Shown one piece after another: positions 1,805-21,594 of a DNA stretch of 64,000 bases; position 1 is the first letter of the stretch, and each line of letters begins with the position of its first letter. The DNA is from Curtobacterium sp. VKM Ac-1395 (GTDB lineage: Bacteria; Actinomycetota; Actinomycetes; Actinomycetales; Microbacteriaceae). The notes beneath the pieces are model-generated. The model had not been told where the DNA came from. It did no database searches and worked only from the letters and a program-made list of their open reading frames with translations. The stretch is from assembly GCF_015350975.1 (NCBI RefSeq), contig NZ_JADKRX010000009.1, positions 1-64,000 on the forward strand, read 5' to 3'. Made by a program: the position numbers and the translations under genes.

Positions 1805-2770
1805 TCAGGAACCGGCGGGCAGGAGCCGGGCGAAGTGGTGGGCGGCCGAGTACATCGGGACGATGTCCACGACCTCACCGGGGTGCGGGGCCTGCAGCAC
1901 GAGGCCGTCGCCGAGGTACAGCCCGACGTGGTCCTCGTTGTCGTAGACCACCATGTCGCCCGGCTTCGCCTCGGACTCGGGGACGGTCGTCGCGACGGCG
2001 TCCTGCGTGGGGACGTAGTGCGCGAGCTGGATGCCGACGGCCTGGTACGCCACCATCGTCAGCCCGGAGCAGTCGATGCCGGCGTGGCTCGCACCGCCCT
2101 CGACGTACGGGTCCCCCATGTAGGCCAGCGCCGTCTGCAGCACCGTGGCACGGTCGCCACCGGGCGACAGCGCTGCCGACAGGGCTGCCTGCGCCTGGGC
2201 GGTGGTGACGCCGAAGCGGAGCACGAGGGTGGGGTAGGACACGACCGACGTCGTGGTCATGCCGTCCGAGGAGATGATCGGGACCTCGACGTCGTGGGCG
2301 ACCGTGAAGGTCTGCAGCTGCTCGGACGTCGTCGTCGCGTGGACCGGTGCGGGCTCGGGCGTCGCGGCGTTCGCCGGGATCGAGAGCGACAGGGTCGAGG
2401 TGATCGCCAGGGCCGGAGCGAGCAGGAGCGCGGCGCGGCGGGCGTTGGCGGCACGGCGGACGTGCCGCGGGTCGACGGCACGCTCGGCACGGAGTCCGGC
2501 CGTCCGGGAGGCCACGACGGCAGGCGGTGCGGCGACGAGCGGCCGTGCCAGGCGTGTCGGAGCGGGGGCACCCACGCGGGTCGGAGCGGGGGCGACCACG
2601 CGGGCCGGCTGCTCGTGCTCGACGACGCCGGCCCGGGTGGAGGCAGTGCCGGCGGCAGAGCGACGGCCGCGGCGCGCGGGGCCGGTGGTGGGGCTCGAGC
2701 TGGAGGTGGAGCTGGGGACGGGAGCGGGTCGACGGCCGTCGTCACCTGCTGGCAGTGCGTGGCGTCCCAT
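1805..2770 (-). CDS. secreted/membrane-anchored NlpC/P60 peptidoglycan endopeptidase
   Basis: A predicted cell-wall hydrolase cleaving peptide stems of peptidoglycan. At 321 aa, it has a Pro/Ala/Arg-rich cytoplasmic region (about 1-105), one hydrophobic segment (about 110-132) ending in an Ala-rich possible signal-peptidase site, a linker, and a C-terminal NlpC/P60 domain. The catalytic Cys is in GIDCSGLT (Cys234), His in EDHVGLYLG (His281), with a third His at about 296. An AAGGA ribosome site precedes the ATG. The long positively charged N-terminus before the membrane segment is unusual for a signal peptide, so the protein may stay anchored as type II. Separate transcription unit. The 175 bp upstream show no motif I recognise. 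Confidence 0.88.
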   Translation of the reverse strand: MGRHALPAGDDGRRPAPVPSSTSSSSPTTGPARRGRRSAAGTASTRAGVVEHEQPARVVAPAPTRVGAPAPTRLARPLVAAPPAVVASRTAGLRAERAVDPRHVRRAANARRAALLLAPALAITSTLSLSIPANAATPEPAPVHATTTSEQLQTFTVAHDVEVPIISSDGMTTTSVVSYPTLVLRFGVTTAQAQAALSAALSPGGDRATVLQTALAYMGDPYVEGGASHAGIDCSGLTMVAYQAVGIQLAHYVPTQDAVATTVPESEAKPGDMVVYDNEDHVGLYLGDGLVLQAPHPGEVVDIVPMYSAAHHFARLLPAGS

Positions 2771-2945
2771 GGTTCCTTCCGGGTCAGAACCGCCCGTCTG
2801 GTGCGGCGACTCGGGAAGATAACGTATTGGTCACGAACCTGATCCCGGCTGGGGAACGGCGGGGAGTTCCTGCGGCCCGTCACAGACTCACCGCGGTCTG
2901 GAGGTGTCCTGCCAGGCCGGGGTGAGCCTCCTGTCCGTGGTCGGA

Positions 2946-3854
2946 TCAGGCCGGGACGAGCGCGAAGTGGGTGCGGGCGACGGCTGCGTCCTCGGCCGGC
3001 GGTCGCCCGTAGGCGGCGCGGTAGTCCCGCGAGAAGTGCGACGCGCTGCGGTACCCGACGGCGGACGCGGCCTGCGCCGCGGTGTCGCCGTGGACGACCA
3101 TCCGGCGCTTGGCCTCCCCCAGGCGGAGCCGCTTGAGGTACTGCATCGGCGACATCCCCGTCGCGCTCCGGAAGCGGGCGTAGAGCGTGGACTCGCTCGT
3201 GCGGACGGCGTCGGCGAGCGTCGTCATCGACCACGGCTCGGCGGTGCGCTCGGTGAGCAGGCGGGTGGCGGCGGCGACGACCGCGGCCTCGCCGGTGCCG
3301 ATCGCGGCCAGGATCCGCGGTGCCTGGTCGGTCTGCAGGAGGCGGAGCACGACCTCCCGGCTGACGAGCGGTGCGAGCACGGGGACGTCCTCGGGGGTGT
3401 CCATCAGCGCGACGAGCCGGGCGAAGGCGTCGGCCAGTGCGGGCGTCCACGTGCCGAGCCGGCCGGGCTCGGCGTCGGACGGGGTCGGGCGGGCCATCGC
3501 ACCGGCGACGTCGGCCACCACGGACGCGTCGAGCTGCCAGACGGCCGACACGAAGCCGACCTCCGGCTCGGTCTCGACGACCCCGGCGATGACGGGCAGG
3601 TCGACGGGCGTGATGATGAAGTGCTCGCGGCCCCAGACCTGGTCATCGTCACCGACGATCGAGCGCTTGCGACCGGCCAGCACCACCGAGAGCGACGGTG
3701 TGTACCGCTGGTAGCCGAGCGGGGTGGTGTCGTACACGCGGGACACCGTGAGCCCGAGCTCCGGCACGGTGCGGCGGTCCTCGACACGGCGGAGCGCGGT
3801 CGCGAGCGCGCGGTCGAGGTGGTCGCTGGTGCCGTCGTCCATGTGCCCATCCAA
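2946..3854 (-). CDS. AraC-family transcriptional regulator
   Basis: A 302-aa DNA-binding regulator: an N-terminal cupin-like AraC_N-type domain (about 20-180) expected to bind a small molecule, and two helix-turn-helix motifs of the AraC/XylS family (about 205-300; the signature runs through GYRSASHFSRDYRAAYGRPP). It is divergent from the SDR gene at 3965, the usual layout for an AraC regulator and its target. A second in-frame ATG at 3842 could be the true start. The effector is unknown. Confidence 0.88.
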   Translation of the reverse strand: MDGHMDDGTSDHLDRALATALRRVEDRRTVPELGLTVSRVYDTTPLGYQRYTPSLSVVLAGRKRSIVGDDDQVWGREHFIITPVDLPVIAGVVETEPEVGFVSAVWQLDASVVADVAGAMARPTPSDAEPGRLGTWTPALADAFARLVALMDTPEDVPVLAPLVSREVVLRLLQTDQAPRILAAIGTGEAAVVAAATRLLTERTAEPWSMTTLADAVRTSESTLYARFRSATGMSPMQYLKRLRLGEAKRRMVVHGDTAAQAASAVGYRSASHFSRDYRAAYGRPPAEDAAVARTHFALVPA

Positions 3855-3898
3855 CCCCGCCCGGCCGTGGGCGGCGGCACCACTGCCGGGGTCGTGCG

Positions 3899-3931
3899 GG
3901 ATCGGGCAAGGACCTCGCGGATCCGGGCAAG
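3899..3931. promoter_or_regulatory. direct repeat, candidate AraC-type operator
   Basis: GGATCGGGCAAG (3899-3910) recurs as GGATCCGGGCAAG (3919-3931), about 20 bp apart or two helical turns, in the intergenic region between the AraC regulator and the divergent SDR. Direct repeats with this spacing are typical AraC-family sites. Assignment to this regulator is by position only. Confidence 0.4.
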
Positions 3932-3964
3932 CCGACGAGCCGGTGCCGCCAGGAGGCTGGATGC

Positions 3965-4762
3965 ATGCAGACGAACGAAGCAGTCCTCGAGTCCCTCCCC
4001 CGTGACGACCGGCTCGCCGGCCGCACCGCCCTGGTGACCGGCGCGACCAGCGGCATCGGCGAGGCGATCGCCCGTGTCCTCGCGGCCTCCGGTGCCCGGG
4101 TCGCCGTGTCCGGCCGCAGTGCCGAGCGGGCCCAGCGGGTGGTGGACGCCATCACCGCCCAGGGCGGCGACGCGGTCGTCGTCCGCGCCGACCTGTCCGA
4201 CGAGCCCGACACCGTGCGCGACCTCGCCACCCGGGCCACCGAGGCGCTCGGTGGACGGGTCGACGTGCTGGTGAACAACGCCGGCGTCTACCCCGGCGGC
4301 CCCACCGCGGCCCTGTCCGACGCGGCGATGCAGGAGCTCTGGGCGACGAACGTGCGCGCGCCACACGTGCTGGTCGGCGAACTCGCCCCGGCGATGGCGG
4401 CGCGGGGCTCCGGCGTCGTGGTGAACGTCGGGTCGTGGATGGCCCGCGTCGGGGTGCCGTTCATGGCGCTCTACCCGGCGACGAAGGCCGCCGTCGAGCA
4501 GCTGACCCGGGCGTGGGCGGCCGAGTTCGGGCCGAGCGGGGTGCGGGTGAGCACGGTGGCGCCGGGCGCGACGGCGACGCCGGGGAACGCGGACTCGGCG
4601 GACGCGCTGGCGGCGATGACGGCGGGGACCCCGGCCGGGGTGCCCGTGCGACCCGTCGACATCGCGTTCGCGGTGCGGTGGCTCGCCTCGGACGAGGCCG
4701 TGTTCGTGCACGGCGGCACCATCGACGTGGACGGCGGAGTTGCGTCGACCCGGATGGGCTGA
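3965..4762 (+). CDS. SDR-family oxidoreductase
   Basis: A classical short-chain dehydrogenase/reductase, 265 aa, NAD(P)-dependent and cytoplasmic. It has the cofactor motif TGATSGIG (residues 25-32), NNAG, and the catalytic set Ser157, Tyr170 and Lys174 (YPATK). A strong AGGAGG site eight bases before the ATG at 3965 fixes the start over the out-of-frame ATG at 3961. It is the likely target of the divergent AraC regulator. Such AraC-SDR pairs are common in actinobacteria, and no substrate can be named from sequence. Confidence 0.88.
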   Translation: MQTNEAVLESLPRDDRLAGRTALVTGATSGIGEAIARVLAASGARVAVSGRSAERAQRVVDAITAQGGDAVVVRADLSDEPDTVRDLATRATEALGGRVDVLVNNAGVYPGGPTAALSDAAMQELWATNVRAPHVLVGELAPAMAARGSGVVVNVGSWMARVGVPFMALYPATKAAVEQLTRAWAAEFGPSGVRVSTVAPGATATPGNADSADALAAMTAGTPAGVPVRPVDIAFAVRWLASDEAVFVHGGTIDVDGGVASTRMG

Positions 4763-4764
4763 CC

Positions 4765-4800
4765 GGCGCCGACCAGGACCGATCGGCGCTGGTCGGTGCC
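4765..4800. terminator. bidirectional terminator between convergent SDR genes
   Basis: A 12-bp stem with one G-U pair (4765-4776 with 4789-4800) and a 12-nt loop fills the 60-bp gap between the stops of the plus-strand and minus-strand SDR genes. Confidence 0.5.
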
Positions 4801-4822
4801 GACCGGACCTGACCGACGCGGG

Positions 4823-5581
4823 CTAGAGGCTCGTCATGCCGCCGTCGACGCGGAACTCGGCCCCGGTCGCGAAGGACGACTCGTCGCTGGCCAGGTAGAC
4901 CATGATCCCGGTCACGTCGTCGGGCGTGCCCGCGCGGCCGAGCGGCGTGCGCGCGACGATGGCCGCTCGCGCTTCCGGGTCCGTCGCGATCGTCGTCACC
5001 AGGCCGGTCTCGGTGTAGCCGGGCACCACCGTGTTGACCCGGATGCCGTCGCGGGCGTACGCCATCGCGGTCGAGCGGACGAGCGCGTGGATGCCGCCCT
5101 TCGTCGACGAGTACGCGGCGAACGTCGAGCCCTCGCCGTTCAGGCCCGTCGGGCTGCCCGTGCAGACGATCGACCCGCCGCCGCGGGGCCGCATCGCCCG
5201 CACGGCGTGCTTGAGCGTGAGGAACGTGCCGGTCAGGTTGACCGCGAGCGTCCGCTCCCAGGCCTCGAGCGGCACGTCGGCCACGGCGGCGTCCTGGCCG
5301 AAGAGCTGCACGCCGGCGTTGGCGACCACGACGTCCGGCACGAGGCCGTCGTCCGCGAGCGACGCGAACCCGTCGGCGACCGAGGGCTCGGACGCGATGT
5401 CCATCGTCAGCGGGACCGCGAGGGCACCGGCTGCGTCGGCCGCCGTCGTCGCCGCGGCGGTGTCACGGTCGGCGTAGACCACGCGGGCCCCCTCGGCCAC
5501 GAACCGGTCGGCGATCGCCCGCCCGATCCCCGATCCCGCGCCCGTCACGAGCGCCACCTTGCCGTCGAGTCGCCCGGTCAT
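4823..5581 (-). CDS. SDR-family dehydrogenase, candidate apiose dehydrogenase
   Basis: A 252-aa classical SDR: TGAGSGIG (13-20), NAG, and Tyr/Lys of YSSTK near 157/161. It ends in the VDGG motif common to sugar and polyol dehydrogenases of this family. It is divergent from apnL and shares with it an intergenic region containing a GTCAACCGGTTG palindrome, so it is probably part of the D-apionate regulon. No Gfo/Idh-type ApsD (the known D-apiose dehydrogenase) is visible within this cluster. The inference is that this SDR makes the lactone substrate of ApnL, or another C4/C5 polyol oxidation product. The SDR assignment is firm; the substrate is a guess. Confidence 0.85.
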   Translation of the reverse strand: MTGRLDGKVALVTGAGSGIGRAIADRFVAEGARVVYADRDTAAATTAADAAGALAVPLTMDIASEPSVADGFASLADDGLVPDVVVANAGVQLFGQDAAVADVPLEAWERTLAVNLTGTFLTLKHAVRAMRPRGGGSIVCTGSPTGLNGEGSTFAAYSSTKGGIHALVRSTAMAYARDGIRVNTVVPGYTETGLVTTIATDPEARAAIVARTPLGRAGTPDDVTGIMVYLASDESSFATGAEFRVDGGMTSL

Positions 5582-5651
5582 CGCATCTGCCCCGTCCCGC
5601 GGGGCGCCGTCGCCCCGTCCGTCTGCTCAGCGTACCGACCGGAGCGGAATG

Positions 5652-5665
5652 GTCAACCGGTTGTC
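5652..5665. promoter_or_regulatory. candidate FadR-type operator upstream of apnL
   Basis: GTCAACCGGTTGTC, a near-perfect palindrome (one mismatched pair), lies between the divergent SDR (start 5581) and apnL (GTG 5671). It matches the perfect palindrome GTCAACCGGTTGAC at 13525-13538 beside the regulator gene in 13 of 14 positions. GGACACGGTTGACT at 5687-5700 may be a second half site. Confidence 0.65.
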
Positions 5666-5670
5666 CAGCA

Positions 5671-7266
5671 GTGGCGGTGGCGGGCTGGACACGGTTGACT
5701 GACGCCGTGATCGATGACGACGCACGAGCGGAAGCCTGGCCGGACGCCACCCCCGAGGAGTCCGTCACGGTCGGCCCGTGGCGGCTCCGGCTGCGCGGGA
5801 CCGAGGTCGCGGACCTCACCCACGACGGCACGCCGGTGCTGCGGGCCGTGCGGTTCGTCACGCGGGACCACGACTGGCGGACCGCCGAGGACACCCTGGT
5901 CAGCCGGACCGTGGACCGGACGAGCACGGGCGTGGACGTCCGGATCGCCGCGCGGAGCGGGTTCGACGGGGACGACGTGCTCGAGTACACCCTCGCGGTC
6001 CGCATCGAGGGCGACGTCCTGCGGGTGGACGGGTCCGCGACGACGCTCCGTGCGTTCCGCCGCAACCGCGTCGGTCTCGTCGCGCTGCACCCCGCCGGAC
6101 TCGCCGGGGTGCCCCTGGTCGTCGAGCACCCCGACGGCCGGCCGTCGATCACGTCGTACCCGCTCTGGATCGCCCCGCACCAGCCCGCCGTCGACGTGGT
6201 CGGGTACCGCTGGACCGCCGGCTCGATCGCGGTCGCGATGACGATGACCGGGGACGTCTTCGAGATGGAGGACCAGCGGAACTGGTCCGACGCGTCGTTC
6301 AAGACCTACTCGACGCCGCTCGCGGAGCCGTTCCCGGTCGCGCTCGAGCCCGGCGCCACGGTCCGGCAGGCGTTCACCCTGCGCTGCGCGCACGTCGAGA
6401 CGGGAGGCTCGGTGACGGTCCTCTCGGACGTCCCGCCGGTCGAGGACCCGGCGGAGGACCTCACGGCCGCCCCTGCCCCGGTGCTCCAGTTGCTCGCGTC
6501 CTCGGCCCCGGCGGCCCTGCGCCCGCCGGACGACGCGCTGCGACCGGGCGTGCCGGTCCTCGTCGAGCCGGTCGTCGGGGCGCCGAACGCGGCCGCCGTG
6601 CTCGCGTCCGCCCGCCGGGACGCGGTCCACGCCCCGCTCGACGTCCGCTTCGTGACCGACGACCCGGTCGCGCTGCGCGCCGCGATCGACGACGTGCTGA
6701 GCAGCGGCGCGGTCGTGCGCGTCGGGGCGTTCGACCCGCGCACCCACGTGACGACGCCGGCACTGCAGCAGGCGCTGCGGGAAGCCGCTCGGGCGGACGG
6801 TGGCCTCGAGGTCGTCGCCGGCACCCGCGCGCACTTCACCGAGCTGAACCGGGCGGTCGCGCTCTTCCGGGACTGGGACGGGCCCCTGACCTTCAGCGTG
6901 ACGCCGCAGATGCACGACCGGTCCCGTGCCCAGGTGACCGAGGCGGTGCGGATGCTGCGCTGGGTGGCGATGAGTGCCTCCAGGCTGGCTGCCGGCCGAT
7001 CGCTCCACGTCGGGCCGGTGACCCTGCGTCCGCGGTTCAACGCGGTCGCGACCTCGGCGCCGGTCCCGATGCCGCGCGCCGACGTCGAGGACGGCCACGG
7101 GCCGCAGTTCGTGCCGGACGCGACGGACCCGGAGCAGCACTCCCCCGCGGCGGACGCGTGGTTCCGCCGGGCCGTGCACGCACTGCGGGCCCCGGGCCTC
7201 GTGAGCATCACGCTCGACGAGGCCTGGGGCCCGCGGGGGTCGACCGGGCGGTCGCTCAGCGCTTGA
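5671..7266 (+). CDS. apnL: D-apionate lactonase
   Basis: Predicted to hydrolyse D-apionolactone to D-apionate in the D-apiose pathway. The 531-aa length is close to the family's. Landmarks that I recognise from ApnL proteins are LRAVRFVTRDHDW near the start, VLHP-type VALHPAGLAG, the strongly conserved EMEDQRNWSDASFKTY, and FTELNR in the second half. The N-terminal half looks beta-rich, the C-terminal half like a TIM-barrel remnant. Position beside apnO and oiaC-like genes supports the call. It converges on apnO with an 11-bp overlap of the 3' ends. The start is uncertain: GTG 5671 or GTG 5707, neither with a clear ribosome site and both very near the operator, so a leaderless transcript is possible. 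Confidence 0.82.
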   Translation: MAVAGWTRLTDAVIDDDARAEAWPDATPEESVTVGPWRLRLRGTEVADLTHDGTPVLRAVRFVTRDHDWRTAEDTLVSRTVDRTSTGVDVRIAARSGFDGDDVLEYTLAVRIEGDVLRVDGSATTLRAFRRNRVGLVALHPAGLAGVPLVVEHPDGRPSITSYPLWIAPHQPAVDVVGYRWTAGSIAVAMTMTGDVFEMEDQRNWSDASFKTYSTPLAEPFPVALEPGATVRQAFTLRCAHVETGGSVTVLSDVPPVEDPAEDLTAAPAPVLQLLASSAPAALRPPDDALRPGVPVLVEPVVGAPNAAAVLASARRDAVHAPLDVRFVTDDPVALRAAIDDVLSSGAVVRVGAFDPRTHVTTPALQQALREAARADGGLEVVAGTRAHFTELNRAVALFRDWDGPLTFSVTPQMHDRSRAQVTEAVRMLRWVAMSASRLAAGRSLHVGPVTLRPRFNAVATSAPVPMPRADVEDGHGPQFVPDATDPEQHSPAADAWFRRAVHALRAPGLVSITLDEAWGPRGSTGRSLSA

Positions 7267-8170
7267 CCGCGTCGATCTTCAGCATCTTGGCGATGACGCT
7301 GTCGAGCTCGCTGTCGTCGAAGACCTGCTTCCAGTCCTCCTTGATGAGCTTCTCGCGGCCGTAGCCCATCGCGATGTGGCAGGCGTCCGAGAACGGGTTC
7401 GAGCCGCGGAGACCGTTCGTCAGCGCGATCCAGGTGTGACCGTAGAGCATCGCGCGGGCGGCCTCGCGGGGCACGCCGACGCCGTTCACGGTCTCCTCGA
7501 GCGCGTCGTGGAGGAAGTCGCCGATCATGCAGGCGATGGTCTCGACGAGGGTCGGCTCGAGCACGGCGAGCTGCTTGACGGTGACCCAGTGCACCTGGAT
7601 GACGGGGGCGTACATCGTCGTGATGACGGCCTCGGCGATCGCCTTGGCACGGTCGCCCTCGTCACCGAGCGACTCGGAGGCGTCGAAGGCCGCGATGACC
7701 TCCTGCGGGGCGGCGATGCCACCGAAGGTGTCGTCCCACTCCTCCTTGCTGGTCCGCTCGAGGAACACGGACGGGTGGCACGGGTGCGCCACGGCGTAGT
7801 GGATGTCCTCGCGCTTGGCGAGGAGGCCCGCGTAGGCCGCGGCGGGGTCGAGCGTCAGGATCGTGGCGCCGGAACGCATCTCGGGGACGAGCTGCTCCGA
7901 GACGGTGCCGAGGAGGACGTCCGGCACGGCGAGGATGACGACGTCGGCGACCTTGGCGGCCTCGATGCTGTCGGTCAGCTCGCGGCCGAGGTCCTTGATG
8001 CGCTCCTGGCCGGCGGGCGAGGCCTCGCTGTAGCGCGTCGTGTACTCGCTCTTGGCGAAGTTGTTCGAGACGCGGGTGCCCATCTTGCCGCCGGCGCCGA
8101 TCACGGCGACGGTGACGTCGGCGGTGCCCGAGCCGGCTGCGGTGGTGTGGCTGATGGCGGTGTCGGTCAT
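7256..8170 (-). CDS. apnO: D-apionate oxidoisomerase
   Basis: Predicted to convert D-apionate to 3-oxo-isoapionate by NAD-linked oxidation coupled to isomerisation. The 304-aa protein opens with a Rossmann fold, GAGGKMG at residues 25-31, and continues as a helical domain like that of the phosphogluconate-dehydrogenase-like family in which ApnO was assigned (AHPCHPSVF and a helix-rich C-terminus). It overlaps the upstream oiaC-like gene by ATGA and is the last gene of the six-gene operon starting at the MFS transporter. Confidence 0.85.
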   Translation of the reverse strand: MTDTAISHTTAAGSGTADVTVAVIGAGGKMGTRVSNNFAKSEYTTRYSEASPAGQERIKDLGRELTDSIEAAKVADVVILAVPDVLLGTVSEQLVPEMRSGATILTLDPAAAYAGLLAKREDIHYAVAHPCHPSVFLERTSKEEWDDTFGGIAAPQEVIAAFDASESLGDEGDRAKAIAEAVITTMYAPVIQVHWVTVKQLAVLEPTLVETIACMIGDFLHDALEETVNGVGVPREAARAMLYGHTWIALTNGLRGSNPFSDACHIAMGYGREKLIKEDWKQVFDDSELDSVIAKMLKIDAVKR

Positions 8171-9012
8171 GATTCCCTGCTCCTGGTGTACTCGATGGTG
8201 TGTTCGGTCCACGCCGCCTCGGTGCGGGTGGTGGTCTGTGCGGGGGTCTCCCCGGGCTCCGGCTCGGCGGCGACGGTGTCGTCCTGCCACGGGAGCCAGA
8301 ACTCGATGACGCGGTTGACGCCCCGGGTCTGCGGGTCGATCGCGTCGCGGATCCGCAGGTGGTCGATGCGGCCGGTGCCGATCGGCACGCCGGTGTACTG
8401 GAAGCCGACCCAGCCCGGGGTGCGGGTGAAGTCGGCGTCCTTCACGTGCCAGTTCCGGACGTACGGGGCGGTCATCCGGACGACGTCCGCCGGGTGTTCG
8501 AGGGCCGCGACGGTGTTCGCCGGGTCGAGGCAGACCCCGAGGTGGTCGGACCCGATCCGGGCGACGACGGCGACGAGGTTCGTGGTGGGCACGACCTCGT
8601 ACGTCTCGAGGGCGAGCGTGACGCCGGCGGCCTCGTACGCGGGCAGGGCCTGGCGGAGTCGCCGTTCGGTCTCGGCCGCGTCGGGCCGGTCGTCGCCGCT
8701 CGTCCACATCGAGCGGACGAGCGTCGCGCCGAGCTGCTCGGCGACGTGCAGGTACCGGGCGAGGTGCTCGGGCGCGGTGCCGCGGGTGCCGACCTCGAGC
8801 ACGAGGCCGAGGTCGTCGGCCAGGGCCTTCAGCGCCGCCAACCGCTCGTCCGACGCGGTGTCGAGCGGTAGGTGGTCGCAGATCTGGAACAGGTCGACGC
8901 CGTCGTGGGACGCCGCGTCGCGGAGGACGTCGTCGAGGGACATCGGCGCCGGCACGCGGTCGGACATCCGCCAGAAGTAGGCGTACGTCGAGAGGCCGAG
9001 GAGAGAGGTCAT
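8167..9012 (-). CDS. oiaC: 3-oxo-isoapionate decarboxylase-like TIM barrel
   Basis: A 281-aa member of the AP endonuclease 2/sugar phosphate isomerase-epimerase superfamily. The expected metal ligands are visible: Glu136 (LALETYE), Asp163 (CLDPAN), His189 (WHVKD) and Glu237 (VIEFW). In D-apionate pathways OiaC, of this superfamily, decarboxylates 3-oxo-isoapionate to L-erythrulose. The adjacent apnO and L-erythrulose kinase genes make that step exactly what is needed here. ATGA overlaps with both neighbours. Without the context it would be called a generic sugar isomerase/epimerase. Confidence 0.75.
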   Translation of the reverse strand: MTSLLGLSTYAYFWRMSDRVPAPMSLDDVLRDAASHDGVDLFQICDHLPLDTASDERLAALKALADDLGLVLEVGTRGTAPEHLARYLHVAEQLGATLVRSMWTSGDDRPDAAETERRLRQALPAYEAAGVTLALETYEVVPTTNLVAVVARIGSDHLGVCLDPANTVAALEHPADVVRMTAPYVRNWHVKDADFTRTPGWVGFQYTGVPIGTGRIDHLRIRDAIDPQTRGVNRVIEFWLPWQDDTVAAEPEPGETPAQTTTRTEAAWTEHTIEYTRSRES

Positions 9013-9812
9013 GCGTCGGCCCCCAGCTGCTCGGCCTCGTCGAGGATCGTCCGGATCGCCGCGGGGTCGTGCGCGAAGCGGCCGAGGAACAGCCCGCCGA
9101 TGCGGCCCCCTCCCCGCGTCAGCAGCCCGGGTCCGGCACTGCCGCCGTAGATCACGACGCTGCCGGCGAGCTCCGGCCGGGTGGCGAGGTGGGCCTCGAT
9201 GCCGGCGAGCACCGCGACGATGTGGTCGTCGGGCGCGGGAGCCGGGGCACCGATGGCCCAGACCGGCTCGTACGCCACGACGACGGGACCGGCGATGCCG
9301 TCCGCCACCGCGGTCTGGACGAAGCGGTCGAGCTGGGCGGTCACCTCGGTGACCGCGTCCGCGATCTGGTCCGGGTGGGAGGCCCGGGTCGACTCGCCGA
9401 CGCAGATGAGGGGCCGCAGGTGGTTCCGGAAGGCGGCGTGCACCTTCCCGGCGACGTCCTGGTCGGACTCGTGGAACAGGGAGCGCCGTTCGGCGTGCGC
9501 GATCTCGACGAGGTCGACGCCGATCTCCGCGAGCTCACGCCCCGAGACCTCGCCGGTGAAGGCGCCCTCGTCCGCCCACGCCAGGTCCTGCGCGCCGAGG
9601 AGCACGCCGGAACCCGTCAGCGCCGCACGCACGGGGACGAGCGACGGGAAGGTCGGGATGACGAACAGCTCGACGCTGCCGTCGGTCACCGCCGGGTGCG
9701 TGCGGGCGATGTCGGCCACGGCCTCGGCCCACGCGATCGTGCGGGCGTGGCCGAAGTACATCTTCAGGGACACCCCGATCGTCAGTCGGGGCGTCGCCGT
9801 GGCCCGGGTCAC
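9009..9812 (-). CDS. lerI: L-erythrulose-1-phosphate isomerase (triosephosphate isomerase paralogue)
   Basis: A TIM-fold isomerase of 267 aa converting L-erythrulose-1-phosphate to D-erythrulose-4-phosphate. The catalytic residues of the triosephosphate isomerase family are in place: Lys17 (SLKMYF), His106 (IAHAERR) and Glu182 (YEPVWAIG). IAHAERR differs from the IGHSERR of housekeeping TpiA, and the phosphate-gripping loop region [13 protein letters not shown] also differs, fitting a C4 substrate. The GTG start at 9812 overlaps the derI stop. The genetic neighbours LerK and DerI are the known partners in erythritol/threitol and apionate pathways. Confidence 0.82.
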
Positions 9813-10291
9813 GCGTCGGTCCCGACCGGGGCGCTGCCGTCGTACGCGCAGATCGCGTTGACCTTGTCGGCGCTCGCGCTGCTCTGGTCGAAGGTGTAGC
9901 CGAGCCACTCCTTCGCCATCCGCCGTGCGACCTCGATGCCGACGACCCGCTGGCCCATGCAGAGGACCTGGGCGTCGTTCGAGAGGACCGAGCGCTCGAC
10001 GCTGAAGGAGTCGTGCGCGGTGACGGCGCGGATGCCGGGCACCTTGTTCGCGGCGATCGCGACGCCGAGCCCGGTGCCGCAGATCAGGATCGCGCGGTCC
10101 GCCTCGCCGTTCGCGACCAGGCGGGCGGCGTCGACGGCGACGTGCGGGTAGGCGGTGTGGCCGTCCGCGTCGACGCCGACGTCCACGACGCTGGCGACGC
10201 GGGGGTCGGCCTCGAGGTCACGCTTGATGACCTCCTTGTAGTCGAAGCCGGCGTCGTCGGAGCCGACGACCAGACGGAACTGCTCGCTCAT
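9809..10291 (-). CDS. derI: D-erythrulose-4-phosphate isomerase (RpiB family)
   Basis: A 160-aa RpiB/LacAB-family isomerase, predicted to convert D-erythrulose-4-phosphate to D-erythrose-4-phosphate, which enters the pentose phosphate pathway. The active-site Cys71 lies in [16 protein letters not shown]. The usual SDHAG motif reads SDDAG here, a difference from ribose-5-phosphate isomerases. It lies 53 bp downstream of lerK; that spacer carries a run of CAG/CAC-type triplets (10313-10335). Confidence 0.82.
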
Positions 10292-10344
10292 GGGGATGCC
10301 TCTCTCGTGGTGCTGCTGGTGCTGGTGCTGGTGCTGCGTCGGGG

Positions 10345-12066
10345 TCAGGCCGGGACGCTGAGCGTCCGGAGGACCGCGGCGGTGATGAGGGCGAACGACA
10401 CGGCACCCGCGTCGGGGGTGCCGACCGCGTCCTCGCCGTGCGTCCGGGCCCGTCCCATGCGGGGCAGGAGCGCCGCGGTGGCGTCGGCCGCCTGCTGGGC
10501 CGCGGCGGAGGCGGCCGTCCACGCCGTGACGAGGTCGTCACCCGCGTCGATGCGCTCGGACAGCACCGCGTCGAAGGGGACGAGGGCGTCGACCATGGTC
10601 TTGTCGCCGACGACCGCGCCGAAGGCGAGGACGGCGTCGGTGGCGGCGTGCACCGCGGTCTGGACGGTGGCCGCGTCGGGCCGGTCGGTGTCGCCGAGGA
10701 CGCGACCCAGGGCCTCCAGGGCGGCGCCCCAGATCGCGCCGGAGGTGCCACCGGCCTTGTCCGACCAGGCGTCCCCCGCGATCGCGAGGACGCTGCCCGC
10801 CCCGGCACCACGCGTTGCGGCGTCCCGGGCGGCCGCGTCCGCGGCCGTGGAGCCACGCTGCATGCCGATGCCGTGGTCCCCGTCACCGGCGACCGCGTCG
10901 ATGCGGCCGAGCTCGTCGGCGTGCTCGTCGATCGTGGTGCGGATCGCGGTGACCGCGTCGGCGACGACCCGGGCGGACGCCTGCGAATCGGGGGTGCCGG
11001 GGGTGACCGGTGCGGCGACGTGGGCGGTGAGGACGTCCTCGGGGAGCCGCTCCTGCGGGACCGCGCCGCCCTTGCGGTACGCGGGGGTGTCCGTCGGCGC
11101 TGCCCAGAGCTGCTCGAGTTCCGCGTCGAGCCAGAACAGGGTCAGGGAGACCCCGGCCATGTCGAAGCTCGTGACGAGTTCGCCGACCTCGGGTTCGACG
11201 ACCACGGCGCCGGCGTCGGTGAGGAGCCGCTGGACGGTGGCGTAGACGACGAACAGCTCCTCGTACTTCACGCTGCCGAGGCCGTTGAGGATCGGGACGA
11301 CGTGGGCGCCGTCTGCCGTGACGCCGTCGGGCAGCTCGGTGAGGAGCTTGTCGACCAGCAGCGTCGCGAGTTCCGCGGCGGTGGGGACGTCGGTCTCGTC
11401 GATGCCGCGCTCACCGTGGATGCCCATCCCGATCGCCATGCGCCCCTCGGGCACCGTGAACAGGGGCTCCTCGGCGCCCGGGAGGGAGCAACCGGAGAAC
11501 GCGACACCGAAGGACCGGGTCCGCTCGTTCGCTTTCGTCGCGACCCGAGTCACCTCGTCCAGGGTCATGCCCTGCTCCGCAGCGGCACCGGCGACCTTGA
11601 ACACGCAGAGGTCCCCCGCGATCCCACGACGCTCGTGGGTTCGGGTGCTGGGTGCGGAGGCGACGTCGTCGGTGACGCGGACTGTGCGGACCTCGATCCC
11701 CGCGTCCCGCAGGGCACGTTCGGCGGCGTCGAAGTTCAGGACGTCGCCGGCGTAGTTGCCGTAGGACAACAGCACCCCGCCACCGTGCTCGGACGCCTTC
11801 GCGACCGCGGTGACCTGCTGCGCGGACGGGCTGGCGAACAGGTTCCCCATCGCCGCGCCGGCCGCGAGCCCGTGGCCCACGAGACCACCGAACGCCGGGT
11901 AGTGGCCGGAACCGCCACCGATGACCAGGGCGACCGTGCCGTCCGGGCTCGCCGTGGACCGGGCGACGCCGCCGTGGACCTTGCGGACACGGGCCTGGTT
12001 CGCGGCGACGAACCCGTCGACCATCTCATCGGCGAAGTCCGCCGGGTCGTTGAACAACCGGGTCAT
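10345..12066 (-). CDS. lerK: L-erythrulose kinase (fused DhaK-DhaL, ATP-dependent)
   Basis: A 573-aa single-chain dihydroxyacetone-kinase-type enzyme phosphorylating L-erythrulose at C1. The DhaK domain (about 1-335) has GGGSGH (51-55) and the substrate-linking His217 in GMGIHGERG. The DhaL nucleotide-binding domain (about 365-573) has DGDHG at 395-399. ATP dependence follows from the fused form; no PTS DhaM is present. An ATGA overlap with the upstream transporter shows co-transcription. On its own it could be a dihydroxyacetone kinase; the lerI, derI and apionate genes argue for L-erythrulose. Confidence 0.85.
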
Positions 12067-13451
12067 GCGCCTGCCTCCGTGGTGACCGCGCGCTCGGCGT
12101 CGGTGGTGGTCGGGGCGGTGCCGGTCTCGCCGCGGTGCTGGCGGGACACGACGACCATGAGGATGCTCGAGAGCACCATGAAGAAGCCGACGATGAACAT
12201 CGGGACCTGGTAGCCACCGGTCCACTCGCTGACGATGCCCGTGATGTACGGGGCAGCGAAGCCGCCGAGGTTGCCGATCGTGTTGATGAGCGCGACGCCC
12301 GCTGCTGCTGCGGCCCCGGTGAGGAACTGCGTCGGCATCGTCCAGAAGTTCGGCAGGGCGGCGAAGATCGCGCAGGCCGTGACCGCGATGACGGCGACGG
12401 TGGCCGCGGGCGAGTTCATGAACAGCGCCACCGGGATGCTGAGCCCACCGACCAGGGCGGGGAGCGCGATGTGCCAGACCTTCACGCCGCGGCGGAACGC
12501 GTCACGGGACCAGAAGTAGAGGACGACCGCGGCGGGCACGTACGGGATCGCCGTGATGAGGCCCTTCTGGAACAGGTCGAACGAGGTGCCGAACTGCTCC
12601 TGGAAGCCGTCGATGATCGTCGGGAGGAAGAAGCTCAGCGCGTAGAGGCCGTAGATGAAGCCGAAGTAGACGAACGCCAGCATCCAGACGCGGCCGTTGC
12701 CGAACGCGGCGCGGAGGGCGCCCTTGCCGTGGCCGTCGTTCTTGCCCTGGTTCTCCTTCGCGAGCGCGGTCTCCAGCCAGACCTTCTCGTCCTCGTCGAG
12801 CCACTTGGCCTGGGACGGCTTGTCCTTGAGGACGAAGAGGCACAGGACACCGACGATGATCGCCGGGATCGAGACGCAGAGGAACATGAAGCGCCAGCCG
12901 GCGAGGCCGCCGAGCAGGCCCTCGTGGGTCATCAGCCACCCGGCGAGCGGGGAGCCGATCACGCTGGTGAGCGGCTGCGCCAGGTAGAACAGCGCGAGCA
13001 TCTTGCCGCGGTGGCGTGCCGGGACCCAGGTGGAGAGGAACAGGATCGCGCCCGGGAAGAACCCGGCCTCCGCGATGCCGAGCAGGAAGCGCAGGCCGAC
13101 CAGCTGCGGGTAGTTCTGCACCCACGTGAAGAGCAGCGAGACGATGCCCCACGTGATCATGATGCGGGCGAGCCAGATGCGGGCACCGAACTTGTGCAGC
13201 GCGAGGTTCGACGGGACCTCGAGCACGAGGTAGCCGATGAAGAAGACCCCGGACGCGAAGCCGAACTGCGCGGCGGTCAGGCCGAGGTCGGATTCCATGC
13301 CGTTCGGGGCCGCGAACGAGATCGCGGTGCGGTCGAGGAAGTTGATGAAGAACATCAGCGCCACGAACGGCACGATGCGGATGGCGATCTTCCGGATGGT
13401 CGTCTTCTCGACGACCGAGGTCGGGATGCCTCGGGTGGCGGGGATGTCCAC
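12063..13451 (-). CDS. MFS transporter, anion:cation symporter type (candidate apionate uptake)
   Basis: A 12-helix major facilitator of the GudP/tartrate (ACS) type, 462 aa, expected to import a sugar acid with a proton. Signature stretches include INFLDR in helix 1, GIAEAGFFPG, and a charged central loop with ALAKENQGKN. A GTG at 13451 is chosen because AGGAG sits five bases ahead; upstream in-frame ATG 13502 lacks a ribosome site. It is the first gene of the apionate operon, directly behind the operator at 13525-13538, so D-apionate or a close relative is the likely substrate. Confidence 0.88.
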   Translation of the reverse strand: MDIPATRGIPTSVVEKTTIRKIAIRIVPFVALMFFINFLDRTAISFAAPNGMESDLGLTAAQFGFASGVFFIGYLVLEVPSNLALHKFGARIWLARIMITWGIVSLLFTWVQNYPQLVGLRFLLGIAEAGFFPGAILFLSTWVPARHRGKMLALFYLAQPLTSVIGSPLAGWLMTHEGLLGGLAGWRFMFLCVSIPAIIVGVLCLFVLKDKPSQAKWLDEDEKVWLETALAKENQGKNDGHGKGALRAAFGNGRVWMLAFVYFGFIYGLYALSFFLPTIIDGFQEQFGTSFDLFQKGLITAIPYVPAAVVLYFWSRDAFRRGVKVWHIALPALVGGLSIPVALFMNSPAATVAVIAVTACAIFAALPNFWTMPTQFLTGAAAAAGVALINTIGNLGGFAAPYITGIVSEWTGGYQVPMFIVGFFMVLSSILMVVVSRQHRGETGTAPTTTDAERAVTTEAGA

Positions 13452-13524
13452 AGTGACTCCTGCTGGGGGAACGACGTTGGTCGGGGTTGGAACGCGGACC
13501 ATCCTGCGCTCTTCGACGCAAGTT

Positions 13525-13538
13525 GTCAACCGGTTGAC
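13525..13538. promoter_or_regulatory. perfect palindromic operator GTCAACCGGTTGAC
   Basis: A perfect 14-bp palindrome in the region between the divergent transporter operon and the FadR-type regulator. The same motif lies in the SDR/apnL intergenic region at 5652-5665. The size and TGGTCAACCGGTTG-like shape fit FadR-subfamily GntR operators. Its position implies control of both the transporter operon and the regulator itself. Confidence 0.75.
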
Positions 13539-13590
13539 CAAAGGGTCGACTGCGCTGGGACCGGGAGCGTCGCACCGCTACGCTCGGCAC

Positions 13591-14337
13591 ATGCCCGCGT
13601 TCAGCGAGAACGACCCCCTCAACATCCGGCTCGAACTCGAGTCGGTGCCGGTCGGGTCCCCCGCGTCCGAGGTCGCCCGACAGCTCGTGTCCCTGCTCAC
13701 CGCCGGTGACCTGGCCCCCGGGTCGCGCTTGCCGTCCGAGCGGGTGCTGGCCGAGCGGCTGGGCGTCGGCCGATCAGCGGTGCGGGAGGCCCTCGCCGCG
13801 CTGGAGATCCTGGGCATCGTGCAGATCCGTCCGGGCTCGGGCACGTACCTGCGCGGCGGCATGTCGGACCTGCTGCCGACGACCCTGTCGTGGGGGCTGA
13901 TGCTCGCGTCGAACCGCACGCGGGAGCTGCTCGAGATCCGGTCCTCGCTCGAGCGCACCGCGGCGATCCTGGCGGCGCAGCGCGCGACGGACGAGGAACT
14001 CGACGCGCTCGGCGACCACCTGGACCGGCAGGAGGCCACCCTCGACGACCCCTCCGCGTTCATCGAGGCCGACGTCCGCTTCCACGTGCAGCTCGCGCGG
14101 GCCGCCGACAACGACGTGCTCGCCGACCTGCTCCAGAGCCTCCGGTCGATGCTGAGCGTGTGGGTCGGCCGCCGCGTCAGCACCCGTGAGGCCACCGAGG
14201 CCGCCTACAACGAGCACCGCGCGATCTACGACGCAATGCGGACGCGGGACGTCGCCGCGACGCTGCGGGCGATGGACGAGCACATGGCCACGGCGAGTGC
14301 GCGCATCGAGCACGCGGACGCGGTGCCGGCGGAGTAG
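13591..14337 (+). CDS. FadR-subfamily GntR transcriptional regulator
   Basis: A 248-aa repressor: winged helix at about 25-85 (SRLPSERVLAERLGVGRSAVREAL), then the all-helical FCD ligand-binding domain (about 100-235) with the Asp/His pattern that usually holds a metal (DVRFHVQLARAADN and NEHRAIYDAM). Divergent from the apionate transporter operon and flanked by the palindrome. It likely responds to a pathway acid such as D-apionate and represses both transcription units of the cluster. The ligand is inferred. Confidence 0.9.
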   Translation: MPAFSENDPLNIRLELESVPVGSPASEVARQLVSLLTAGDLAPGSRLPSERVLAERLGVGRSAVREALAALEILGIVQIRPGSGTYLRGGMSDLLPTTLSWGLMLASNRTRELLEIRSSLERTAAILAAQRATDEELDALGDHLDRQEATLDDPSAFIEADVRFHVQLARAADNDVLADLLQSLRSMLSVWVGRRVSTREATEAAYNEHRAIYDAMRTRDVAATLRAMDEHMATASARIEHADAVPAE

Positions 14338-15308: not shown

Positions 15309-17735
15309 TCAGTCGGCGTCGAACAGCACCGGGACGCGGACACCGACCTCGTCGAGCCGCACCAGGACCTCGCGTCCGCCGTGACGCACCACGTGGCTAC
15401 CCAGCGCCCGCGGGGTGCGTGCCCGCAGGCCGGCCTCGACCAGTTCGGCGCCGTCGTGCCCCACGGCGCCCCAGGTCACGTCGACGTCGATGCCGGGCCG
15501 GGCGACGAGCCCACGGACGGACCCGTGCGCGAAGACCTCGGGCACGGCGGGGAGCAGGTCGAGACGACCGCGGTGGGACTGCACGAGCATCTCGGCCACG
15601 GCGGCGACGACGCCGAGGTTGCCGTCGATCTGGAACGGCGGGTGCGCGGCGAACAGGTTGCGGTAGAGACCGCCACGCTGCCCCTCGTCGTCGACCCCGT
15701 CCATGGTGCGGAACACGAGCGGCAGGAGCCTGCCGATCGCGGCGGTGTCCCCGAGCCGGGCACGGAGCGCGAGCTTCCACGCCAGCGACCACCCGGTGGA
15801 GTCGTCGCCGCGGGCGTCGAGCGTCCGGGCGACCGCGGCGGCCATCGACTCGTCGAGCGGTTCGGTGCCCGGGTACGCCGCGACGAGCGAGGACACGTGG
15901 CGGTGCCCCGGCTCGGCGTGCCCGCGGTCGGCACGCCACTCCGGCACGGCTCCGTCGGTGCCGGGCTCGATCGGCGGCAGGGCGTCGGCGAGCGCCGCCA
16001 GTCGCGGGTCGGGCACGAGGCCGACCCGGTCGCTGAGCCTCCGGTACGCGGACACCGTCATGCCGATGAGCGCGAGGTCCATCGCCGAGTCCGTGTCGAC
16101 CGACCCGGGGGCACCCGTCGCGGTGACGAAGTGGTTCTCCGGCGAGGTCGAGGGGACCGTGTGCGGGAGACCGTCGTCGCCGGTGACGAGCCAGGCGTCG
16201 ACGAACGCGAGCGCACCGGCCACGAGCGGCAGCAGCACGTCGGTGACGTAGGCGTCGTCGGCACCGTGGTCGGCGTGCGCGATCAGCGGGTCGAGCAACC
16301 AGAGCGCACCCATCGGCCAGAACGCGTACGCGGGGTCGTGCTGGCCCTCGCCGATGGGCTGGGTGTACCCCCAGGCATCGGTGTTGTGGTGCGCCACCCA
16401 CCCGGGAGCGTCGTACAGCCGGGCCGCGGTCTGCTCCCCGCTGCGGGCGACGGCCTGGACCAGCGTGACGAGCGGCTCGACGGTCTCGGGCAGCGCGGTG
16501 ACCTCGGCGGGCCAGTACGCCATCTCGAGGTTGACGTTCGTGGTGTAGTTCGCGCTCCACGGCGGCCGGAGTGCGGCGTTCCAGATCCCCTGCAGCGTCG
16601 CGGGCAGGCCACCGGGGCGGGACGAGCAGATGAGGAGGTACCGGCCGTACGCCACGAGGAGCGCCGCGAGACCGGGGTCCGTGGCGATGCCGTCGGCGGC
16701 GACCCGGGCGAGGCGCTCGTCCGTCATCAGGGTGGCGTGGTCGGCGTGGTCGCCCTCCGGCAGCGTCAGGGTGAACCGGTCGTACAGCGTGGCGTGGTCG
16801 GCTCGCTGTTCGTCGCGGACCCGGTCGATGCCGGTCGCGATCGCGGTGTCCACGAGTCCGGCCGCGACCGAGGCGGCGTCGGCAGCGGTGCCCGACGGCG
16901 CGCGGCCGGCCCCTTGGGCGGTCGTCGCCGTGGCGAGGACGATCCGGACCGTCCCCCGGGCCGGCACACGGACGCGTTCGGGGCCGGAAGCAGCGTCGGT
17001 GGTGAGCGGACGATCGTGCTCGTCGACCACCCGGAGCACCGCAGCGCCCTCGAGGGCGGGACCGTCCCAGCGCACCGGGTCCGGCACGTCGCCGTCGTGG
17101 GGCGGCCAGACGTCGCTCGGCAGCCGGACGAGCAGCACCGCGTCACCCGGTCCGGACGCCGCCGCACCGGCAGCAGCCCCGGCACCGGACGACCCGTCGA
17201 GCGGCGCGTGCAACAGCGTCTCGAGCGACACGTCCACCGTCCCCACGCCGGAGTCCGGGAACACCAGCTCGTGCACGAGCACCCGGTGGGGCCAGGACGC
17301 CCAGGTCGCGGTGCGGACGGGCTGGCCGTCGAGCACGAAGGACGTCGTCGCGGTGGCGGTCGGGAGCTCCAGCGTCCGTTCGTGGTCCTGCACGGAGCCG
17401 TCTCCGTCGGGCGTGGTCGTCACGAGCAGGTCGACGAACGGCACGTACGCCTGCGTGTGCCGGTGCTGCACCCGGCGGAGCGCGTCGGCGGCGTCGTCGA
17501 ACCGCTGCTCGGCGATCGCGGCGCGGGAGTCGGCGAGCGCTGCCCGGACGGTCTGCGGGTCGAGCGGGTCGACGTGTTCGGTCTCGACGGTGCCCGACCA
17601 CGCGGACCCGTCGTTGACGCCGACGCGGTCGGCGAGCGCACCGCCGTGGCACATCGCCCCGAGCAGGCCGTTGCCGACGGGGAGTGCATCGGTCCAGGTG
17701 GTCGCGGGGCCCCGGTACCGGAGCACGGCGCTCAT
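15309..17735 (-). CDS. glycoside hydrolase family 95 (alpha-L-fucosidase/galactosidase)
   Basis: An 808-aa GH95 enzyme, releasing alpha-1,2-linked L-fucose or L-galactose from glycans such as xyloglucan or rhamnogalacturonan II by inversion. It starts with the family's ALPVGNGLLGAM motif (N-terminal beta domain), followed by the (alpha/alpha)6 barrel. Family catalytic residues are recognisable: Asn pair in NYTTNVNLEMAYWPAE (about 397), Glu in EPGHRHVS (about 606) and Asp in QIDGNLG (about 701). No signal peptide, so it acts on imported oligosaccharides. Last gene of the LacI-controlled minus-strand operon, with an ATGA overlap. Confidence 0.92.
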   Translation of the reverse strand: MSAVLRYRGPATTWTDALPVGNGLLGAMCHGGALADRVGVNDGSAWSGTVETEHVDPLDPQTVRAALADSRAAIAEQRFDDAADALRRVQHRHTQAYVPFVDLLVTTTPDGDGSVQDHERTLELPTATATTSFVLDGQPVRTATWASWPHRVLVHELVFPDSGVGTVDVSLETLLHAPLDGSSGAGAAAGAAASGPGDAVLLVRLPSDVWPPHDGDVPDPVRWDGPALEGAAVLRVVDEHDRPLTTDAASGPERVRVPARGTVRIVLATATTAQGAGRAPSGTAADAASVAAGLVDTAIATGIDRVRDEQRADHATLYDRFTLTLPEGDHADHATLMTDERLARVAADGIATDPGLAALLVAYGRYLLICSSRPGGLPATLQGIWNAALRPPWSANYTTNVNLEMAYWPAEVTALPETVEPLVTLVQAVARSGEQTAARLYDAPGWVAHHNTDAWGYTQPIGEGQHDPAYAFWPMGALWLLDPLIAHADHGADDAYVTDVLLPLVAGALAFVDAWLVTGDDGLPHTVPSTSPENHFVTATGAPGSVDTDSAMDLALIGMTVSAYRRLSDRVGLVPDPRLAALADALPPIEPGTDGAVPEWRADRGHAEPGHRHVSSLVAAYPGTEPLDESMAAAVARTLDARGDDSTGWSLAWKLALRARLGDTAAIGRLLPLVFRTMDGVDDEGQRGGLYRNLFAAHPPFQIDGNLGVVAAVAEMLVQSHRGRLDLLPAVPEVFAHGSVRGLVARPGIDVDVTWGAVGHDGAELVEAGLRARTPRALGSHVVRHGGREVLVRLDEVGVRVPVLFDAD

Positions 17736-21206: not shown

Positions 21207-21245
21207 CGCGTGCTCCTTTGCTCGCCGAGCTGCTCCCGCCGGTGC

Positions 21246-21259
21246 GGAAAGCGCTTGCC
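21246..21259. promoter_or_regulatory. LacI-type operator upstream of the GH95 operon
   Basis: GGAAAGCGCTTGCC, with the palindromic AAGCGCTT centre typical of LacI-family operators, lies 40 bp ahead of the TTG start of the dehydrogenase gene. An identical 14-mer is at 22779-22792 before the ABC transporter operon. The LacI gene between them is the probable regulator. Confidence 0.8.
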
Positions 21260-21540: not shown

Positions 21541-21594
21541 CTGTCGGTCGAGGTGTCGGTCGGGGTGTCGGTCGAGGTGCCGGCCGGGGTGTCA
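21541..21594. repeat. 12-bp tandem repeat abutting the lacI-type stop codon
   Basis: About four units of GTCGGTCGAGGT/GTCGGTCGGGGT immediately follow the stop of the LacI-family gene. The rest of the 385-bp gap (21207-21591) holds the operator at 21246 and otherwise only GC-rich sequence with no gene I can support. Confidence 0.85.

Follow-up and report, generated by a model that had tools for sequence, protein, structure and literature searches.

A predicted FadR-controlled D-apiose/D-apionate regulon in Curtobacterium with a putative short-chain dehydrogenase as its first enzyme

Pathways for D-apiose and D-apionate with ApsD, ApnL and ApnO, and the chemistry of the ApnO, OiaC, LerK, LerI and DerI steps, were reportedly described by Carter et al. 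2018. Enzyme Commission names exist for apionolactonase, apiose dehydrogenase and apionate oxidoisomerase (PMC11747546), and the erythrulose phosphate route occurs in Actinomycetota (PMC12780249). Here, a 64,000-nucleotide stretch of Curtobacterium sp. VKM Ac-1395 (the window; NZ_JADKRX010000009.1, contig C18 of this 3.92-Mb genome) was analyzed, in which a cluster resembling these pathways is joined to a gene for a short-chain dehydrogenase/reductase (SDR). Gene content, gene order, co-occurrence and a shared palindromic site were computed, and from them the locus is probably a regulon for D-apiose and D-apionate under FadR control, in which a non-orthologous D-apiose 1-dehydrogenase of the SDR type would act first.

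The core operon lies on the minus strand and comprises six genes, encoding a major facilitator superfamily (MFS) transporter, a DhaK-DhaL kinase, an RpiB-family protein, a triosephosphate isomerase (TIM)-family protein, an AP_endonuc_2 protein and a PGDH_C dehydrogenase. The FadR-type gene is divergent from this operon, apnL is convergent with it, and the SDR gene adjoins apnL in divergent orientation (Table 1). At four of the five operon junctions, neighboring genes overlap by 4 bp (ATGA or GTGA), in agreement with the coupling that an initial annotation of the locus had described for most of the operon; the kinase/RpiB junction is a 53-nt gap. All genes named in that annotation were present, as judged by frames, starts, stops and family matches, although the start of apnL is likely 5707 instead of 5671. 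The extent given for the cluster covered these genes and overlooked the SDR gene, which lies outside it and is part of the unit. The nine genes FadR-MFS-LerK-DerI-LerI-OiaC-ApnO-ApnL-SDR were found in identical order in 20 of 20 loci of the first same-genus set fetched, while three further same-genus loci deviated, two by rearrangement (G053 and G050) and one by split frames (G025). In the latter (L073; genome 65% complete), the reading frames of LerK, ApnL and the SDR are each broken into two or three pieces, perhaps by sequencing errors. Because the nine-gene order recurs within the genus and the operon without RpiB recurs on Erwinia and Pantoea plasmids, the cluster is not a product of chance. 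The cluster is real, and the assignment of its core to D-apionate is likely.

The association between the SDR and ApnL was quantified in 149 genomes (the Curtobacterium genome and 148 relatives), with SDR presence called at E<=1e-60. ApnL was detected in 34 genomes, and in 33 once a short N-terminal match in G042 (5.3e-4) was dropped. ApnO was detected in 51 genomes and was strong in 45; the rows dropped, at about 20-25 bits, were G007, G015, G039, G054, G055 and G135, and the match in G004 was partial. The SDR was present in 32 of the 149 genomes, all 32 of them ApnL-positive, and in none of the 12 genomes with ApnO but without ApnL. By Fisher's test, uncorrected for phylogeny, this association gave p 9e-32 over all genomes and p 4.5e-10 within the 45 strong-ApnO genomes (table 32/0/1/12). 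In G009, ApnL lies on a 3.4-kb contig, and hence the absence of the SDR there is uninformative. ApnO is in turn the genomic partner of ApnL, with a strong match in 33 of 33 ApnL-bearing genomes (VKM Ac-1395 included, G042 dropped). Eleven of the 12 ApnO-only loci were examined: in nine same-genus loci and in G112 the core operon is complete from the regulator through ApnO, with no SDR or ApnL, and the eleventh (L179) is cut by a contig end.

A wider sample, drawn from a scan of genome contigs, took the best 80 among 577 confirmed loci and is hence biased to ApnLs like that of the window; it comprised 71 loci classed as actinobacterial by title and nine others (eight Bacteroidota, one Chloroflexi), with the SDR called at 55% identity or more. 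The SDR was found in 59 of the 71 actinobacterial loci; in 57 of these 59 no more than 600 bp separate it from ApnL, and in 53 the two are on the same strand. The nine non-actinobacterial loci contained no SDR, and five contained ApsD; the two enzymes occurred together in 0 of 80 loci at the thresholds used. In Microbacterium loci such as L119, the genes form one run, MFS-LerK-DerI-LerI-OiaC-ApnO-SDR-ApnL, an order seen in several. In Paraburkholderia and Paracoccus, the gene directly preceding ApnL encodes a Gfo/Idh/MocA dehydrogenase, which in Paraburkholderia is presumably ApsD, the known type of apiose dehydrogenase. Relatives of ApsD at E<=1e-30 were found in 3 of the 149 genomes, none ApnL-positive. 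The VKM Ac-1395 genome had no ApsD homologue at this threshold, which led to the rejection of ApsD as a hidden dehydrogenase, and the Gfo/Idh/MocA gene of the window (19881-21275) likewise gave no ApsD match at E<=1e-30.

The SDR motif TGxxxGIG and the catalytic set N115, S143, Y157 and K161 did not vary among 34 aligned sequences, of which two were paralogues. Of the broad NCBIfam subfamilies, PRK07231 (glucose 1-dehydrogenase) came nearest, and its cut-off of 215 bits was missed at 205 bits. A literature search, mainly of openly available papers, returned among the matches listed no SDR named as an apiose dehydrogenase, no actinobacterial apionate pathway and no GntR apiose regulon. Beside the front end, at 2946-4762, the window also encodes an AraC-type regulator and a second, only distantly related SDR (40% identical to the first); of 20 same-genus loci, just the three closest showed a second SDR at this place.

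The front end and the core operon share a palindromic site, whose 12-bp core, GTCAACCGGTTG, occurs only at the two positions of Table 1 in the whole genome; the reversed control gave no site. No third match was found in the window at up to 3 mismatches, and shuffled sequences had a mean of 0.04 matches per window. At the same tolerance, 68 of 75 sites in the 31 loci of relatives had a pathway gene no more than 300 bp downstream, and the proportion was 17 of 18 for the 11 core-only loci and 78 of 101 for the 80 named-contig loci. The MFS/FadR promoter carried the site in 28 of 29, 10 of 10 and 47 of 52 of the respective loci holding these genes; the sets overlap in part, some named contigs being the same genomes. 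The motif gave 200 hits over 131 loci. Actinobacterial SDR-ApnL units lying within 500 bp after a same-strand core gene had their own site in 1 of 33 loci, compared with 20 of 27 loci without a preceding core gene (p 3.7e-9), and in the relatives set the corresponding values were 0 of 2 and 24 of 27.

The predicted regulator has a GntR helix-turn-helix with a FadR/NanR-type C-terminal domain and matches the NanR, LldR and PdhR NCBIfam models along most of its length, all below their cut-offs. Its gene is divergent from the operon in relatives also. From the position and symmetry of the sites, we infer that the FadR-type protein binds them. A promoter scan found 0.

The initial annotation had proposed a pathway from D-apionate to D-erythrose-4-phosphate, a reading for which synteny, the comparison with paralogues and the shared operator give good support. 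The synteny extends to Erwinia, Pantoea and many actinobacterial loci. In plasmids of Erwinia E602 and Pantoea At-9b the operon genes are also clustered, with rpiB divergent, and identities between the window and these clusters were 66% for MFS, 60% for DhaK-DhaL, 47-48% for TIM, 45-47% for OiaC and 61-62% for ApnO. ApnO belongs by profile to the PGDH_C dehydrogenases. The adjoining OiaC-type barrel is 45-53% identical to cluster relatives outside the genus, and its residues E136, D163 and H189, which we take to be metal ligands, were invariant across nine aligned proteins. LerK exceeded the cut-off of NF011049 (PRK14479 subfamily; 730.2 versus 492 bits). The genome contains two further TIM genes and two further RpiB genes beside those of the window. 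LerI is distinct from TpiA, sharing 36% identity with the NWKMN-type TIM on contig C11 and 47-52% with LerIs of other clusters, and its SLKMY signature is common to the Erwinia and Pantoea proteins. DerI shows 31% identity with the RpiB on C11, whereas the values are 45-66% with DerIs of other clusters and 45% with the RpiB of the Erwinia cluster; the RpiB on contig C13 was left out of this comparison. DerI exceeded the TIGR02133 cut-off (203.8 versus 168.2 bits) and fell below the rhizobial equivalog NF051858 (143.5 versus 240 bits), as did the Erwinia cluster RpiB (182.8 bits). The MFS protein scored 283.8 bits against the TIGR00893 D-galactonate transporter model, whose cut-off is 395. No NCBIfam model specific to ApnO, OiaC, LerK or LerI was hit by the window proteins. 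A route through a DUF1537 (OiaK-type) kinase was rejected, as PF07005 had no match in the genome.

The match of the ApnL-like protein to the curated profile NF049900 covers residues 29-243, with a second, weak stretch at 367-523 (E 9.7e-4). Its score of 181.5 bits lies far below the cut-off of 750; for comparison, Paraburkholderia ApnL scored 770.4, Paracoccus 634.1 and the actinobacterial protein of L064 212.5. By the refuting criterion that the initial annotation had itself set for ApnL, this low score speaks in part against it, so the name ApnL rests on homology and genomic context. Homology extends along the protein, with a conserved FEMEDQR-NW-DAS-K motif (alignments A1 and A4), and the C-terminal end is missing. 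Same-genus ApnLs are 502-538 aa long, except for G050 (547 aa) and the broken G025 copy; most of those from elsewhere are 552-681 aa, the exceptions being a single one of 720 aa and another three of 501-523 aa. A frameshift, suspected from the profile stop at residue 243, was rejected because codon-position G+C is continuous, in one frame, to about 7180, and was also ruled out by the second profile stretch and the full-length alignment of relatives. No break interrupts the frame in 22 same-genus copies of near-full length, that of VKM Ac-1395 included. In the alignment, E379 (in FTELNR) and E505 are nearly invariant and N381, H403 and D474 invariant; as a guess, these five may be catalytic. 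The predicted model (pLDDT 91.6, pTM 0.90) resembles the C-terminal domain of Escherichia coli LacZ and galactose mutarotases over residues 14-229 (best LacZ chain: Z 16.7, root-mean-square deviation 3.5, 204 aligned). For the C-terminal half on its own, the likeness is to GH51-type barrels (Z 16.7, root-mean-square deviation 3.2, 235 aligned). Such likeness of fold by itself shows no function, and a search of PDB chains with the ApnL profile gave 0 matches.

A link to D-apiose itself is suggested by neighboring glycosidases. Predicted apiosidases (PF13204 with DUF5060 and DUF5605) stand in operon-like runs with the SDR and ApnL in L064 and L109, and L147 has in such a run a protein 66% similar to a predicted apiosidase. 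In G119 the SDR and ApnL are at least 0.8 Mb apart, and the SDR directly follows a predicted apiosidase (L186); this apiosidase was overlooked by the PF13204 genome search and recovered by protein query. In M. oxydans the SDR is likewise away from ApnL and follows a protein similar to a predicted apiosidase (L198). Relatives of these glycoside hydrolases occur somewhere in 16 of the 71 actinobacterial loci. The close apiosidase family was found in 6 of 149 genomes, five of them ApnL-positive (5/6 versus 28/143 genomes, p 0.002); for PF13204 as a whole the values were only 5/12 versus 28/137 (p 0.095). Other genes were seen near ApnL as well. In L153 (9947-15159) genes for the binding protein, ATPase and permease of a sugar-type ATP-binding cassette (ABC) transporter follow ApnL; an operator-like site lies near their start, and the transporter is a candidate D-apiose importer. 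L065 (10403-14508) has a nucleoside-hydrolase-family protein and an alpha-L-rhamnosidase between ApnL and ApnO, and an alpha-L-rhamnosidase is near the L064 genes too.

In the pathway proposed from these data, the SDR would oxidize D-apiose to D-apionolactone, which ApnL, by homology, would open to D-apionate; alternatively, the MFS permease may import D-apionate directly. ApnO would convert D-apionate to 3-oxo-isoapionate, OiaC would decarboxylate the latter to L-erythrulose, and LerK would phosphorylate this to L-erythrulose 1-phosphate. LerI and DerI would then yield D-erythrulose 4-phosphate and D-erythrose 4-phosphate, which would enter the pentose phosphate pathway. Binding of the FadR-type protein to GGTCAACCGGTTGACC-like sites would switch the SDR-ApnL front end and the core operon together, since both promoters share the site. 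The initial annotation had inferred growth on apiose-derived acids from plant cell walls. D-Apionate is a likely substrate, but this inference was too narrow: since an SDR and ApnL front end is also present, D-apiose and D-apionate are the likely substrates, and a plant cell-wall origin is plausible. Quite probably, many actinobacteria use this hitherto unassigned SDR family as D-apiose 1-dehydrogenase in place of the non-orthologous Gfo/Idh/MocA enzyme, and the SDR forms with ApnL an accessory front-end module that some core D-apionate operons have and others lack, linked to the core by a conserved FadR-type operator (GGTCAACCGGTTGACC).

Several results weigh against an apiose-oxidizing SDR under FadR control. 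ApnL scores far below its curated cut-off and is missing, at its C-terminus, very roughly 80 aa that most other ApnLs possess; it has also diverged faster than its neighbors, at 62-64% identity versus 92-95% for ApnO in most same-genus species. Twelve actinobacterial loci have no SDR: L170 has ApsD, L129 is a short contig and L151 has a partial SDR match, while for the other nine a genome search found an SDR ortholog elsewhere in three (61-72%) and none in six, Jiangella and Ruania among them (best 39-43%, or none at E<=1e-40). Thus, ApnL is not always accompanied by the SDR, though some of these six genomes are metagenome bins. Seven of the 27 separately starting front units (L098, L101, L109, L114, L128, L147 and L150) are without a site, and among 40 decoy palindromes the highest reached 96 hits, compared with 200 for the motif, and four more exceeded 60. 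The PF13204 matches of the neighboring glycosidases were modest (48-67 bits), the M. oxydans neighbor matched only DUF5605 and DUF5060, and in G134 the SDR is far from ApnL with no apiosidase seen beside it (L187). No apiosidase relative was found in the VKM Ac-1395 genome by PF13204 or protein query, and no D-apiose importer was identified. Further, Curtobacterium Ery-28b showed growth on D-erythrose but no significant growth on L-erythrulose (PMC12780249).

Three other explanations were considered. The core operon might serve D-apionate while the SDR is a co-regulated neighbor with another role, such as reduction of D-apiose to apiitol or oxidation of another plant sugar. Twelve of 149 genomes have ApnO without the SDR or ApnL, the bare core operon stands in ten same-genus loci, nine of them whole, and specificity is unreadable from an SDR sequence that falls short of PRK07231 by ten bits. 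However, the SDR tracks ApnL rather than ApnO, has the operator in common with the operon and adjoins predicted apiosidases and ApnL in several genomes; moreover, a lactonase should require a lactone-forming dehydrogenase, and no ApsD relative is present. A separate role for the SDR is unlikely. Somewhat less likely still is a cluster that degrades a different branched or C5 aldonic acid to L-erythrulose through ApnL-like and ApnO-like enzymes of shifted specificity. ApnL is under its curated cut-off, and ApnO and OiaC match no specific curated model. In addition, a second operon in the same genome has a LerK 89% and a LerI 78% identical to those of the window behind a different front end, and the lower pathway may thus serve more than one substrate. 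Against this stand the PF13204 apiosidase-type glycosidases that accompany the front end in relatives and the ApnO-OiaC-LerK-LerI-DerI set, which fits the apionate route reportedly described by Carter et al. 2018.

The C-terminal loss and faster divergence of ApnL could also mean that the protein is decaying and non-functional in the genus, with only imported D-apionate being used. This explanation is improbable, as the 22 same-genus frames are open, the model is confident and the operator is retained; the residues invariant in alignment A4 are, by definition, kept in the window copy. A D-apiose/D-apionate regulon with an SDR-type dehydrogenase remains the preferred reading: Actinobacteria would have a system for apiose and apionate under joint regulation, in which a probable new enzyme family carries out the first step. 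This would give a testable function to an SDR family that here matches only broad models. It would also show that Actinobacteria living on plants and in soil break down apiose and apionate, by way of a defined regulon with a predicted operator. If the regulator responds to apiose or apionate, regulator and operator would form a biosensor pair.

Table 1. Positions of the predicted genes and operator sites of the cluster in the window
Feature	Position	Strand	Match
SDR-family dehydrogenase, 252 aa, predicted D-apiose 1-dehydrogenase	4823..5581	-	PF13561/PF00106
Palindromic operator TGGTCAACCGGTTGTCCA between SDR and apnL	5650..5667	.	zero mismatches to pattern
ApnL-like D-apionolactonase (predicted), 519 aa, GTG start	5707..7266	+	NF049900 181.5 bits
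ApnO-type D-apionate oxidoisomerase (predicted), PGDH_C family, 304 aa	7256..8170	-	PF16896 181.1 bits
OiaC-type 3-oxo-isoapionate decarboxylase (predicted), AP_endonuc_2 TIM barrel, 281 aa	8167..9012	-	PF01261 72.8 bits
LerI-type L-erythrulose-1-phosphate isomerase (predicted), TIM family, 267 aa, GTG start	9009..9812	-	PF00121
DerI-type D-erythrulose-4-phosphate isomerase (predicted), RpiB family (LacAB_rpiB), 160 aa	9809..10291	-	TIGR02133
LerK-type L-erythrulose kinase (predicted), fused DhaK-DhaL, 573 aa	10345..12066	-	PF02733 + PF02734 (Dak1+Dak2)
MFS transporter (MFS_1), 462 aa, GTG start, predicted D-apionate importer	12063..13451	-	PF07690
Palindromic operator TTGTCAACCGGTTGACCA between FadR-type gene and core operon	13523..13540	.	
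FadR-type GntR regulator, 248 aa, predicted binder of two operators	13591..14337	+	NCBIfam matches below cut-offs

Related genes occur elsewhere in the genome. The second erythrulose-type operon (L075, C1:324000-343500, at about 2290-9857) encodes a GntR/FCD regulator, an AP_endonuc_2 barrel, a 3HCDH-family dehydrogenase, an SDR, an MFS transporter, LerK and LerI, and lacks the exact 12-bp operator core; it may direct C3 oxidation of another sugar acid followed by decarboxylation to erythrulose. Near the end of contig C13 (L074, 8368-12265), a DerI-like RpiB that is 86% identical to that of the window lies next to an FGGY kinase and another DhaK-DhaL kinase (51%), and these genes may form a tetritol pathway. 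Within the window, genes at 15309-25252 encode a GH95 glycosidase, an AP_endonuc_2 protein, a DUF993 protein, the Gfo/Idh/MocA oxidoreductase, a LacI regulator and a sugar ABC transporter, and possibly serve another plant-derived sugar.

Compared with the Carter-type pathways, the locus shares homologues of ApnL and ApnO and the logic of apiose to apionate to 3-oxo-isoapionate. It differs in that the dehydrogenase beside ApnL is an SDR and not a Gfo/Idh/MocA protein, the genome lacks a DUF1537 (OiaK-type) kinase domain, and the decarboxylase is OiaC-type and not the RuBisCO-like OiaX. The plasmids of Erwinia sp. E602 and Pantoea sp. At-9b carry MFS, DhaK-DhaL, TIM, OiaC-type and ApnO-type genes in the order of the window. 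Unlike the window, these clusters had no ApnL or SDR in the stretches examined; they have a sugar-binding regulator of another type where the window has FadR, and their rpiB is divergent where that of the window is inside the operon. A transketolase gene lies beside the Pantoea cluster.

The Rhodobacteraceae LCG007 cluster, whose host strain grows on D-apiose, shares apionolactonase, apiose dehydrogenase and apionate oxidoisomerase, but continues with a 3-oxoisoapionate kinase and a phosphate decarboxylase in place of OiaC-LerK-LerI-DerI (PMC11747546). The erythritol/threitol pathways of Mycolicibacterium smegmatis and Brucella share the part from erythrulose phosphates to D-erythrose 4-phosphate, while their substrates and upper parts differ from those of the window (PMC12780249). 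The same study isolated Curtobacterium Eru-6 from an L-erythrulose enrichment, and its authors (2025) called the transporters and kinases for Curtobacterium tetrose use enigmatic; the operon described here offers a candidate lower pathway for this use. A different route for D-apiose, in Escherichia, has no apsI, and two oxidoreductases were proposed as substitutes (PMC13001218). The idea that one enzyme may stand in for another in apiose catabolism is thus not new, though it was put forward for a different step.

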